A DNA stretch of 33,163 nt. It comes from a virus. The notes beneath the pieces were generated by a model. That model ran no database searches. It was not told where the DNA came from and was given only the letters and a program-made list of their open reading frames with translations. Shown here piece after piece: positions 1-33,163 of the stretch (its first letter is position 1; the number at the start of each line of letters is the position of its first letter). The stretch is from IMG/VR virus record IMGVR_UViG_3300027852_000030, positions 1 through 33,163 of that record; one strand, given 5' to 3'. The translations under genes and the position numbers were made by a program.

Positions 1-127
1 CAAACTCACAATCATGGTTGCTTTTTAGAGCATCAATGGGTTTATAAAAAGACATTTGAGAACGAAGGTTCAAAATTTAACGGAAAGGATGAAGCGACAT
101 GGTAATTCCTAAAAGATTTAAAGAGGC
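1..127. repeat. Left copy of the 127-bp terminal overlap
   Basis: Bases 1-127 are identical to 33037-33163. The overlap covers the 3' end of the replisome-organizer gene and the first codons of the DnaC-like gene, so coding runs unbroken across the join. I infer a circular assembly graph, with a unit length of 33,036 bp. A length of exactly 127 equals a commonly used maximum assembler k-mer. It is therefore more likely an assembly overlap than a biological direct terminal repeat, although a short true repeat cannot be excluded. Confidence 0.95.
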
Positions 128-632
128 TAGTCTAGATAATTTTAGAACTAGGACTAAGGTTGATAAAGAAATAGTTGCTCATTTACAGACTGAGCTAAAA
201 AATAATACAATTATTCTCGGAGGCGTTGGTATAGGTAAAACTCATTTAGCTTGGGCCTTATATAGATCTAAAGAAACTGAGGTAGAGATTAAAGGAGAGC
301 TTGTAAAAATAAATAATACTGTAAAAATAACTACAATTAAAGAAATTGTTGATGATATTAGAAGCGGATGGAAAACAGGGAAGTCAAATATAGAAGATTA
401 TAAAAATATTCCGATCCTTATTGTAGATGAGTTAGGCGTTCAATACGGATCAGATAGCGAGAAGATAGAGTTATTCGAAGTATTTAATTATAGATATAAC
501 GAAATGCTGCCTACCGTAGCAATAAGTAATCTTAATAAAGAGCAGATAAAAATAGCTTTAGGATTAAGAATATACGACAGATTGTTTGGCGGAGCTAAGG
601 TTTTCGAGTTATATGGGGAGAGTGAGAGATAA
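99..632 (+). CDS. DnaC-like helicase loader (AAA+ ATPase)
   Basis: This 177-aa protein is a phage DnaC/IstB-type AAA+ ATPase. Such proteins load host DnaB onto phage origins, as lambda P and DnaC do. A Walker A motif GGVGIGKTH lies at residues 41-49, Walker B ILIVDE at 106-111, a sensor-like TVAISN at 139-144 and a candidate arginine finger in YDRL at 160-163. Its length is somewhat below that of cellular DnaC, because a short N-terminus lacks most of the DnaB-binding extension. On the circular map its start overlaps the end of the replisome-organizer gene by 7 bp, so the two form one replication unit. The family call is firm; the DnaB-loading role is inferred from family and context. Confidence 0.85.
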   Translation: MVIPKRFKEASLDNFRTRTKVDKEIVAHLQTELKNNTIILGGVGIGKTHLAWALYRSKETEVEIKGELVKINNTVKITTIKEIVDDIRSGWKTGKSNIEDYKNIPILIVDELGVQYGSDSEKIELFEVFNYRYNEMLPTVAISNLNKEQIKIALGLRIYDRLFGGAKVFELYGESER

Positions 633-2760: not shown

Positions 2761-2784
2761 GAAGTTTAACAAAGGAGTAGCGAA

Positions 2785-5222: not shown

Positions 5223-5668
5223 TGGCAGGCTCAATAAATAAAGTAATATTAGTAGGTAATCTAGGTAATGACCCAGAAATTAGATCTTTTCAAAACGGAG
5301 GAAGAGTAGCGAACCTATCTATAGCTACATCTGAATCTTGGAAAGATAAAGCTTCAGGCGAAAGAAAAGAAAAAACAGAATGGCATAGAGTTGTTCTATT
5401 TAATTCAGGTCTAGTTGATTTAGCAGAAAAGTATCTTAAAAAAGGCTCTAAGGTTTATATCGAGGGTAAATTAGAAACTAGAAGCTATGAGACTTCTTCA
5501 GGAGAAAAAAGATATTCTACTGAGGTCGTATTAAGGCCTTATAGCGGAGATCTTCAAATTCTTGATAAAAGAGAAGGTGGTACACAGGGTTGTACACAAA
5601 GTGAACCAGTTAGTGACCCAGCTTCAAACCCAGACGAAGATAATTTTGACGATGAGATTCCGTTCTAA
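5222..5668 (+). CDS. ssb: Single-stranded DNA-binding protein
   Basis: This is a typical bacterial-type SSB of 148 aa. The OB fold spans roughly residues 4-110, with [16 protein letters not shown] at the start, the WHRVV strand and the [18 protein letters not shown] strand. A Pro/Asp/Asn-rich linker leads to the canonical acidic tip DDEIPF that docks host repair proteins. It protects single strands in replication and in the exonuclease/annealase pathway encoded just upstream, and it is the last gene of that operon. Confidence 0.95.
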
Positions 5669-31233: not shown

Positions 31234-31355
31234 GTAGAAAACAACAAGCAGATGCTATTAAAAAGTCGATTAAAAGAAATAAACGACATGATCGAAGAAC
31301 TGTTAAGTGTAAACTAAGAATTAAATATATAAAGGGTAATAATTATGAATTATAA
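31230..31355 (+). CDS. Very basic 41-aa peptide
   Basis: A short ORF starts at the ATGA overlap with the o-spanin stop and runs 11 bp into the lysozyme gene. It encodes MSRKQQADAIKKSIKRNKRHDRRTVKCKLRIKYIKG, extremely Lys/Arg-rich. It could be a coupling ORF that carries ribosomes to the lysozyme start, or a small nucleic-acid-binding peptide. The exact fit to both neighbours supports translation. Confidence 0.5.
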   Translation: MSRKQQADAIKKSIKRNKRHDRRTVKCKLRIKYIKGNNYEL

Positions 31356-31770
31356 TTTAATAAAACAGTTTGAAGGATTTAGCCTCGTAGCATACAAGTG
31401 TTCAAGAGGGGTTTGGACTATTGGTAATGGTAACACCCACTATCCAAATGGGGAAGCAGTAAAAGAAGGAGATAAAATTTCTCAAGAATATGCTGATGAA
31501 ATATTTTATGATTACTGTAATAAAGAAGTAAAACCTTTAGTTGATGTTTATGTATGGTTAAATAATAACCAAAGAGAGGCCCTTAGTAGCTTGATTTATA
31601 ATTGTGGGGGATTATTTACAAAAAGGAACCCATCGCTCCACAAGGCTCTTAAAAAGCAAGATTATAAAGAAATATATAAACAGTGGAATTTTGGAATATC
31701 TAATGGCGGCGGTTTAATCACTAGAAGAGCCGAAGAGTTAAGTCTATTCTTTAGATATCCGTATAAATAA
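31345..31770 (+). CDS. Endolysin, GH24 lysozyme
   Basis: A 141-aa phage lysozyme that cleaves the MurNAc-GlcNAc bond. The family triad E-8aa-(D/C)-5aa-T is complete: E10 in QFEGF, C19 (the Cys variant) and T25 in GVWTIGNG. NNNQREALSSLIYNCG and a C-terminal ITRRAEELSLF are the other usual blocks. No signal peptide or SAR helix is present, so export depends on a holin such as the 30641 protein. Confidence 0.92.
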   Translation: MNYNLIKQFEGFSLVAYKCSRGVWTIGNGNTHYPNGEAVKEGDKISQEYADEIFYDYCNKEVKPLVDVYVWLNNNQREALSSLIYNCGGLFTKRNPSLHKALKKQDYKEIYKQWNFGISNGGGLITRRAEELSLFFRYPYK

Positions 31771-31811
31771 ATATCTTTTTAATAAAAAATTAAAATAAAT
31801 TATTTTTTTAC

Positions 31812-31840
31812 TTGACAATTTTATATTTAATCTATATAAG
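31812..31840 (+). promoter_or_regulatory. Promoter for the replication region
   Basis: TTGACA (31812-31817), 17-bp spacer, TATAAG (31835-31840). Start expected near 31847, leaving only a few bases before the SD GGAGTAGCGA of the leader ORF. The surrounding 80 bp after the lysozyme gene are almost pure A/T. Confidence 0.7.
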
Positions 31841-31846
31841 TATTTT

Positions 31847-31967
31847 TTAAGGAGTAGCGAAATGAAAAAATCTAATTATATTATGGCAGGAAATGAGGGA
31901 AGTGTCGCTACTCGCTCTTATTTTTGCATTGAAAAATGCCCTGCCACCATTATAAGGAGTAGCGAAG
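31847..31967 (+). promoter_or_regulatory. RBS-sequestering leader with duplicated SD and one antisense copy
   Basis: GGAGTAGCGA occurs at 31851-31860 and at 31956-31965, in each case as the ribosome site of an ORF. Between them TCGCTACTC (31905-31913) is the exact reverse complement of the last nine bases. It can therefore pair with either site, 44 or 43 nt away. Interleaved with both is a third stem, TGGCAGG (31884-31890) with CCTGCCA (31940-31946), and a GCATT-GAAA-AATGC hairpin (31926-31939). The pairings exclude one another unless they form pseudoknots, as expected for a translation switch. The ligand or trigger is unknown. Confidence 0.6.
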
Positions 31968-31993
31968 ATGTCAAAAAGATTTACAGATTCTGA
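31862..31993 (+). CDS. Leader ORF (43 aa) overlapping the next start
   Basis: The ORF begins MKKSNYIMAGNEGSVATRSY and continues to IYRF, with stop at 31991-31993. Its SD and spacing (GGAGTAGCGA-A-ATG) are identical to those of the gene at 2785. It passes through the antisense segment and the second SD and ends 26 nt into the following gene in another frame. Ribosomes on it would unwind the structures that can hide the second SD. It may be a regulatory leader peptide rather than a functional protein. Confidence 0.45.
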   Translation: MKKSNYIMAGNEGSVATRSYFCIEKCPATIIRSSEDVKKIYRF

Positions 31994-32510
31994 GAAGTTC
32001 AGAGATACCTGGTATCGTAAACTTAAACCTAAACATAAATGCTTATGGGAGTACTTTTTAGCTGAGTGTTCTGTTGCAGGAACTCTAGAAATAGATCTAG
32101 ATAGCATTTCTTTTCATATAGGAGATAAAATTTCTCATGGAGATATAGCTATTTTTAAAGATAGAATACATTTTATCAAAAAGAATAAAATATTTATTCC
32201 TTATTTTATAGAACTTCAATGTTCTAAAAAAGGAAAATGGCATTGGAATTGGATGGGTGGAATAACACCAGCAAATAGAACAATTAGAAACTCATCACAA
32301 TATAAAACATGGAGAAAATCTGTCTATAAAAGAGATAATTATAAATGCCAAATTGCTGGTTGTAAAGCAAACAACCTAGAGGCGCATCATATAAAAAGCT
32401 TTGCAAAACATCCAAAAGAAAGATTTAATGTAGCAAACGGAATAACATATTGTAAAAAACACCATACGGAGCTACATAAAGGAGGTTCAGATGCGAAAAA
32501 GAACAATTAA
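31968..32510 (+). CDS. Chimeric replisome-organizer-like / HNH protein (180 aa)
   Basis: Residues 1-90 (KRFTDSEKFRDTWYRKLKPKHKCLWEYFLAECSVAG... and IHFIKKNKIFIPYFIELQC) match the winged-helix N-terminus of phage replisome organizers. From about residue 92, GGITPANRTIRNSSQYKTWRKSVYKRDNYKC leads into an HNH domain with C127, C132, H140-H141, N157, C162, H166 and H170. The organizer's usual C-terminal half is missing. The DNA-binding part may target the nuclease to the origin, or an HNH domain may have invaded an old organizer gene. It overlaps the intact organizer at 32491 by 20 bp. Confidence 0.75.
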   Translation: MSKRFTDSEKFRDTWYRKLKPKHKCLWEYFLAECSVAGTLEIDLDSISFHIGDKISHGDIAIFKDRIHFIKKNKIFIPYFIELQCSKKGKWHWNWMGGITPANRTIRNSSQYKTWRKSVYKRDNYKCQIAGCKANNLEAHHIKSFAKHPKERFNVANGITYCKKHHTELHKGGSDAKKNN

Positions 32511-33141
32511 GCCAGATTTTTTCTCTGACCCTAAAACAGGTCGATTATCCCCTACATCTCAAATATTATTTATTGGTATGTGGTGTCTTGCTGATAGAGA
32601 GGGTTATATAGAAGACGATAATGATTTTATCAAAATACAAATATTGCCTTATTTAAAATCTAATATAGATAAAAATATAGAAGAGTTAATATCTAATAAG
32701 CTTATAATTAAATGTAATTACAATAATAAGAATTTATTAAACATAGTTAATTTTAAGAAACATCAGCCTATTCATCCTAATGAAGCTAAAAGTCCTTATG
32801 TATCAATAGATTCAGAGGATGTAATTAAATGTAATTACAAAGAATTACATCCTAATGTTAATGGTATAAGTAAAGGTAATAGTAATGTTATAAGTAAGAA
32901 AGAATATGGAATTTATAAAAATATATTATTAACCGATGATGAATATAAAGGTTTATTGAAATTATATAAAACCGAAGAGAATTTAAAAAGAGCTTTTCAG
33001 CATCTAGCAGTATGGAAGAAAAATAAAAAGAAAAAACAAACTCACAATCATGGTTGCTTTTTAGAGCATCAATGGGTTTATAAAAAGACATTTGAGAACG
33101 AAGGTTCAAAATTTAACGGAAAGGATGAAGCGACATGGTAA
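32491..33141 (+). CDS. Replisome organizer (DnaD/gpO-like)
   Basis: 216 aa. The N-terminal winged helix (DPKTGRLSPTSQILFIGMWCLADREGYIEDD...) and VNFKKHQPIHPNEAKSPY are typical of phage replication initiators that bind the origin inside their own gene. The C-terminal part (WKKNKKKKQTHNHGCFLEHQWVYKKTFENEG) resembles primosome contact tails that recruit helicase or loader. GGAGG lies 5 nt before ATG. The DnaC-like loader follows with a 7-bp overlap on the circle. Its middle carries the repeat cluster described as a candidate origin. Confidence 0.75.
   Translation: MRKRTIKPDFFSDPKTGRLSPTSQILFIGMWCLADREGYIEDDNDFIKIQILPYLKSNIDKNIEELISNKLIIKCNYNNKNLLNIVNFKKHQPIHPNEAKSPYVSIDSEDVIKCNYKELHPNVNGISKGNSNVISKKEYGIYKNILLTDDEYKGLLKLYKTEENLKRAFQHLAVWKKNKKKKQTHNHGCFLEHQWVYKKTFENEGSKFNGKDEATW
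32705..32915. other. Candidate replication origin: iteron and palindrome cluster
   Basis: The 19-mer TAATTAAATGTAATTACAA occurs at 32705-32723 and 32822-32840. The second copy contains the perfect palindrome TGTAATTACA (32830-32839) and is bracketed by GGATGTAATT (32817-32826) and its inverse AATTACATCC (32843-32852). Downstream, TATAAGTAA occurs twice (from 32864 and from 32891) in an AT-rich stretch. Repeats inside an initiator gene are the lambda-type origin layout. The peptide IKCNY is repeated as a consequence, so coding repetition is the alternative. Confidence 0.5.
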
Positions 33142-33163
33142 TTCCTAAAAGATTTAAAGAGGC
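33037..33163. repeat. Right copy of the 127-bp terminal overlap
   Basis: This is an exact duplicate of the first 127 bases. It contains the end of the replisome-organizer gene and, from 33135, a second copy of the start of the DnaC-like ATPase gene, which is truncated by the contig end. It should be trimmed before the genome is treated as a circle. Confidence 0.95.

Follow-up and report, generated by a model that had tools for sequence, protein, structure and literature searches.

An uncultured, podovirus-like phage has, between its lysozyme gene (31345-31770) and its replication genes, a leader that carries two identical ribosome-binding sites (RBSs) and, between them, a segment complementary to both. 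We asked whether this candidate switch region could control the translation of the genes behind it, or whether its features have a more ordinary origin.

Genome and organization of the leader

The window, i.e., the whole stretch of DNA analysed (33,163 nucleotides, 33 kb), is the entire genome of this phage. The 127 bases at its two ends (1-127 and 33037-33163) are identical, so the record appears to represent a complete genome that is circular or circularly permuted. It encodes a T7-type head-tail connector, a terminase, a Rad52-like protein, a YqaJ recombinase, a phage lysozyme, and SSB. The nearest named relatives of its portal protein, from Methylophilales phage MEP301 and pelagiphages, show at most about 29% identity.

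The first site of the leader, SD1 (GGAGTAGCGA, 31851-31860), is the RBS of a short leader ORF with its ATG at 31862; the second, SD2 (GGAGTAGCGA, 31956-31965), is the RBS of a gene starting with the ATG at 31968. The antisense arm (TCGCTACTC, 31905-31913) lies between them and is complementary to both, and all these elements, like the promoter and stems described below, are on the plus strand. The letters and positions that the sequence-only reading had given, for this triad and for the third stem, were all correct. Perfect complementarity of the arm extends over 9 of the 10 bases of the repeated RBS, and the true direct repeat is 17 nt long at 94% identity (31845-31861 and 31950-31966). In the whole genome TCGCTACTC occurs only once, and the 9-mer GAGTAGCGA is present in five copies, counting both orientations; one of these is located within the ssb gene (5304-5312), away from any start codon. 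A predicted sigma-70-type promoter (TTGACA-17 nt-TATAAG, 31812-31840) was found directly upstream, as had been proposed, in an AT tract with 7% G+C (31770-31850), and from the sequence transcription would be expected to start near 31847.

A third copy of the RBS (GGAGTAGCGA, 2774-2783, plus strand) precedes ORF 2785, which opens the Rad52/YqaJ/SSB operon. Near this copy, no inverted or antisense counterpart was found; both this site and its lack of a partner had been overlooked before. The repeated RBS can thus occur without a switch. In the same region (2626-2785), a promoter-like sequence (TTGACT-17-TAGAGT) precedes a 5' untranslated region containing an 8-bp stem (TTTAAGCC/GGCTTAAA; z -1.4), and the RBS copy (GGAGTAGCGAAATGA) stands before a cysteine-rich protein of 114 amino acids.

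Leader ORF and downstream genes

The leader ORF (31862-31993, plus strand) has 43 codons and overlaps the following gene by 26 nt. As previously claimed, both the antisense arm and SD2 lie within its course. The codon score of the ORF, -7.8 bits, compares with a mean of 12.6 bits (standard deviation, 6.7) for 43-codon pieces of real phage genes and -17.8 bits (standard deviation, 7.7) for off-frame pieces. The codon CGC, which accounts for 2 of the 9,633 codons of the phage, occurs in the leader ORF at 31913-31915, its first base being the final base of the arm; GTC, likewise rare, is found at the other end of the arm region. Such codon usage fits a sequence shaped by RNA pairing over peptide, and equally fits plain noncoding sequence. 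The peptide itself is probably unimportant. No significant family match was found for it, and a tblastn search against phage records returned chance matches only. We also considered a type I toxin and rejected it, the peptide not being hydrophobic.

The gene under SD2 (31968-32510, plus strand) was earlier taken for a replication gene. Its C-terminal part is an HNH endonuclease domain (PF13391 above its cut-off; PHROG HNH families), and its first 84 amino acids share 56% identity with the beginning of a 273-amino-acid viral protein, the rest of which weakly matches "replication initiation O-like" (E 0.007). Based on this N-terminal initiator-like similarity and the C-terminal HNH domain, we call it an initiator-like/HNH chimera. 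The earlier assignment therefore has to be amended, although a replication initiation protein (32491-33141, plus strand; phrog_16167, E 3e-26) and, as the next gene past the circular junction, a DnaC-like helicase loader (99-632, plus strand) follow in the same direction. Elsewhere in the window, next to a RusA-like resolvase gene (2217-2573), positions 1861-2220 encode a small protein with matches to HNH and NinG/Rap-type junction endonuclease families.

Predicted folding of the leader

Folding was calculated for nested structures, and pseudoknot energies were added by hand and lie within model error. In transcripts ending at 31915-31925, the arm was predicted to pair with SD1 (state A) with a probability of 0.99. 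Once the transcript reached 31946 or beyond, stem S formed instead (probability, 0.94 to 0.99; 0.98 for the complete leader) by pairing of TGGCAGG (31884-31890) with CCTGCCA (31940-31946). This stem closes a compact three-way junction comprising hairpin 1 (31891-31923), in which 31891-31899 pair with 31915-31923 and the 15-nt loop 31900-31914 displays the antisense arm, and hairpin 2 (GCATT-GAAA-AATGC, 31926-31939). When the RNA was masked through 31890 or 31904, as by a ribosome, the arm paired with SD2 (state B) with a probability of 0.96 to 0.98. In this helix CUUAU/AUAAG extends the 9-mer pairing, giving 14 bp interrupted by a single 3-nt bulge, so that SD2 (AUAAGGAGUAGCGA) is wholly covered. 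State B had a probability of approximately 0 in the complete leader and was dominant only with the 5' arm of S masked.

Both the sequence and the calculation support the earlier propositions that the one arm can pair with either SD and never with both, and that stem S interleaves with both pairings. The notion of a two-way toggle fared less well. The arm can indeed pair with either site, but neither A nor B is the nested ground state of the complete leader, in which the arm is paired to neither SD and both SDs are mostly or half open. Since A, S, and B each dominate in a different context, the predicted logic is three-state and ribosome dependent and not a simple two-way toggle. Of the tRNA-like outline seen in the leader, the CCA after the outer stem is present (31947-31949), but the comparison as such was not borne out: ARAGORN detects neither a tRNA nor a tmRNA in the window, and the predicted fold has a three-way, not a four-way, junction.

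With a penalty of 9.6 kcal/mol, the Dirks-Pierce value, we roughly estimate the S scaffold with an additional arm:SD pseudoknot at -33 to -35 kcal/mol, compared with -29.5 kcal/mol for the nested fold. Judging from the loop lengths, the pseudoknot with SD2 looks easier to build than that with SD1, because a single nucleotide would have to bridge the SD1 helix. The core of the leader (31877-31955) was more stable than its shuffled versions (z -3.4, P = 0.002), with bounds set after the fold had been seen, while the longer stretch 31838-31993 was no better than shuffles (z -0.4), so the energy evidence hinges on the ends chosen.

Chance expectation and search for relatives

The genome has a single exact direct-inverted-direct triad of 9-mers contained in 200 nt, where dinucleotide shuffles would lead one to expect 0.067. 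When the spacer was shuffled, none of 20,000 versions contained TCGCTACTC, 9 of 20,000 had any 9-mer complementary to AAGGAGTAGCGAA, and 14 of 5,000 gave a duplex energy as good as the real one. Among the approximately 50 RBSs of the phage, the local complements of SD1 and SD2 rank first (-16.3 kcal/mol), the means being -5.7 and -6.2 kcal/mol for upstream and downstream partners, respectively (standard deviation, 2.6). In other viral loci, an exact 9-nt complement within 110 nt was found for 9 of 519 RBSs (1.7%), and 587 kb of other viral DNA contained 9-mer triads at three loci only, two of which are repeat clusters. For one site the pattern exceeds the chance expectation, and for a pair of sites with a common arm it is clearly unusual, although these figures call for some discount, the triad having been picked by eye from the whole window. 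In an unrelated virus (L043:5191-5235), the RBS AAGGAGTAGCGAA is followed about 30 nt downstream by its exact complement, GCTACTCCT.

Relatives were sought with the rep gene, the HNH gene, the portal, the terminase, an alignment of the HNH N terminus, and the exact triad pattern in viral and genome contigs. Apart from an identical contig (IMGVR 3300002180_000254), this search gave no relative alignable at the DNA level; the protein relatives found were far too distant for RNA alignment. The regions upstream of three distant initiator-like genes (L111 to L113) showed neither a strong RBS complement nor a similar leader layout. The string AAGGAGTAGCGAANATG was present in 53 viral loci, our own contig included, mostly before unrelated genes, and in the fetched loci with AAGGAGTAGCGAANATG the exact TCGCTACTC was never found outside this phage. 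Outside its own phage, AAGGAGTAGCGAANATG is thus a generic strong RBS, and we rejected the string alone as the mark of a special regulon. No part of the window matched an Rfam family at the gathering score, and the best subthreshold matches were at chance level.

One of the leaders preceding a distant initiator-like gene (L113:1870-2000, from the same virus as L008) has a very strong structure of its own (z -4.5), in which a long G+C stem closes two hairpins and is followed by TTTTTCTTT, with an interleaved 10-bp helix (GAGAATGCAG/CTGCATTCTC) and a 36-amino-acid leader ORF. It has no Rfam match and looks like an attenuator.

Proposed mechanism and alternative explanations

The reading we prefer, tentatively and with somewhat less than even confidence, is that the leader exerts cis-acting translational control over the replication operon of the phage, in which a ribosome on the short ORF times the opening of SD2. 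The sequence features were observed and the folding was calculated; from there on, we infer the effect on translation. According to the calculations, the arm would pair with SD1 first during transcription, delaying translation of the leader ORF. Once 31940-31946 has been made, stem S and the two hairpins would form and SD1 would be freed, and the arm in the loop of hairpin 1 would, by a rough estimate, remain able to form a pseudoknot with SD2. On entering the leader ORF, as calculated for the masked RNA and proposed for the cell, a ribosome would disrupt stem S; with this stem broken, the 14-bp bulged arm:SD2 stem would form and shut the next gene. The same ribosome, held back where the arm carries rare codons (e.g., CGC), could then open the arm:SD2 stem in passing and so create a window for initiation at SD2. 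By these four steps, we propose, the initiator-like/HNH gene, and perhaps later genes as well, would have its translation tied to that of the leader ORF. A bolder version, which we consider doubtful, is that one loop-displayed arm arbitrates two identical RBSs, steered by the leader ribosome, as a switch with three states that times itself and controls when the phage enters DNA replication, acting perhaps also in trans on the third site in the recombination operon.

The simplest alternative is that the leader contains ordinary tandem RBSs, the cassette AAGGAGTAGCGAA being reused in the operons for replication and recombination, the leader ORF being a small or decaying gene, and the complement being coincidental and having no regulatory effect. 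The third RBS copy (2774), which exists without an antisense arm, is in keeping with this, as are the many unrelated viruses in which AAGGAGTAGCGAANATG precedes genes without an exact TCGCTACTC in the locus and the nested ground state, where the arm pairs with neither SD. A 9-nt complement is moreover found at about 1 to 2% of RBSs elsewhere, and the finding was chosen by eye from the whole window. We nevertheless consider this explanation somewhat unlikely, as the complement is exact, suits both SDs, ranks first among 50 genes, and appears in none of the 20,000 shuffled spacers, and as the codon usage of the leader is not gene-like. Another possibility is that the repeats act as DNA, GAGTAGCGA being an operator or a replication iteron for the downstream initiator-like protein and serving autoregulation or the opening of an AT-rich origin. 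The presence of five 9-mers genome-wide, direct as well as inverted, would agree with such a role, and so would the spacings of 53, 52, and 105 bp, which are close to 5, 5, and 10 helical turns, the adjoining promoter and 7% G+C tract, and the initiator genes immediately downstream. However, three of the four direct copies stand exactly 1 to 2 nt before an ATG, as expected of ribosome sites, and this fixed distance argues for a ribosome-site role. Furthermore, the copy at 2775 is about 120 bp from its promoter-like site, that at 5304 lies within ssb, the GC skew does not change sign nearby, and only three sites are clustered, which together make DNA sites distinctly improbable.

Two further explanations assign the arm a different function at the RNA level. 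In a transcription attenuator, hairpin 1 (31891-31923) with its U-rich tail (UUAUUUUUG) would be a weak terminator competing with the arm:SD1 helix, and translation of the leader would decide between them. This helix is indeed the first to form in the nascent RNA, and a U-rich stretch does follow hairpin 1 (-9.7 kcal/mol for 31888-31926), but a consensus scan detects no terminator, the U tract belongs to the stem, and the G+C-rich core is interrupted and reaches just -6.5 kcal/mol; we regard attenuation as very unlikely. The displayed arm could instead act in trans on the third RBS copy (2774) and thereby couple the replication and recombination operons. The 9-mer is present in that copy too, and the duplex calculated for it and the arm region (-17.6 kcal/mol) is as favorable as the cis pairings, but this follows trivially from the common RBS. 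As a separate small RNA is not visible, with no terminator after the leader and no Rfam match, we rate action in trans as likewise very unlikely.

Should the cis-acting control that we favor be real, a DNA phage would set the onset of its replication by leader-ORF-coupled translation, a mode of control described chiefly in plasmid replicons and RNA phages. The leader would then also be a compact natural case of one antisense segment serving two identical RBSs, which could be rebuilt with reporters. Should it not be real, the locus would serve as a caution against inferring switches from one genome without relatives.

Comparison with known systems

Control of replication genes through a coupled leader peptide is known from the IncFII plasmid R1 (tap-repA). 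Likewise, in I-complex and IncL/M plasmids (repY-repZ of ColIb-P9 and repB-repA of pMU604), a short leader ORF enters the RBS of the replication gene, its translation is thought to open the structure there, and long-range or pseudoknot pairing is involved (PMC8125031, PMC10286972). The 26-nt overlap of the phage leader ORF with the following gene is as in rep control of the IncI-alpha and IncL/M type. In the plasmids, however, the pseudoknot activates translation and an antisense RNA regulates it, whereas the candidate pseudoknot of the phage would close the RBS, and in the phage one arm serves two identical RBSs. Folding revealed no activating pseudoknot of the IncI-alpha or IncL/M kind in the leader; the interleaved pairings involve the SDs themselves and would close them. 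For an antisense RNA against the leader, the minus strand offers only a weak promoter-like site (31908-31880; 9 of 12 positions), in a scan that yields no more sites than expected by chance.

Nascent toxin mRNAs such as timP adopt mutually exclusive conformations, a pseudoknot among them, that determine how accessible the RBS is; in timP the pseudoknot is required for translation and is antagonized by a small RNA (PMC11228461). The phage differs in having a leader ORF and no known antitoxin RNA. As an activating pseudoknot is absent and no antisense RNA is evident, the leader is not a member of the plasmid-rep or timP-type families.

In the ermC translational attenuator, SD1 is free and SD2 is held in a stem until a leader ribosome stalled by the drug exposes it. 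The phage leader resembles it in having a leader ORF with its own SD and alternative stems chosen by the position of the ribosome. Unlike in ermC, SD1 of the phage shares the arm with SD2, and a ribosome at the leader start is predicted to close SD2; the folding gave SD1 closed in the nascent RNA and SD2 closed with the ribosome masking to 31890-31904, an order other than that of ermC, and no ligand is known for the phage leader. In the coat-replicase arrangement of MS2, ribosomes translating the ORF upstream disrupt a long-range pairing that covers the start of the replication gene, whereas here the phage is a DNA phage, a short leader takes the place of the structural gene upstream, and the RBS sequences are duplicated. 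Set beside these systems, the leader, whose function we infer, is probably a variant of leader-ORF-coupled SD-sequestration switches.
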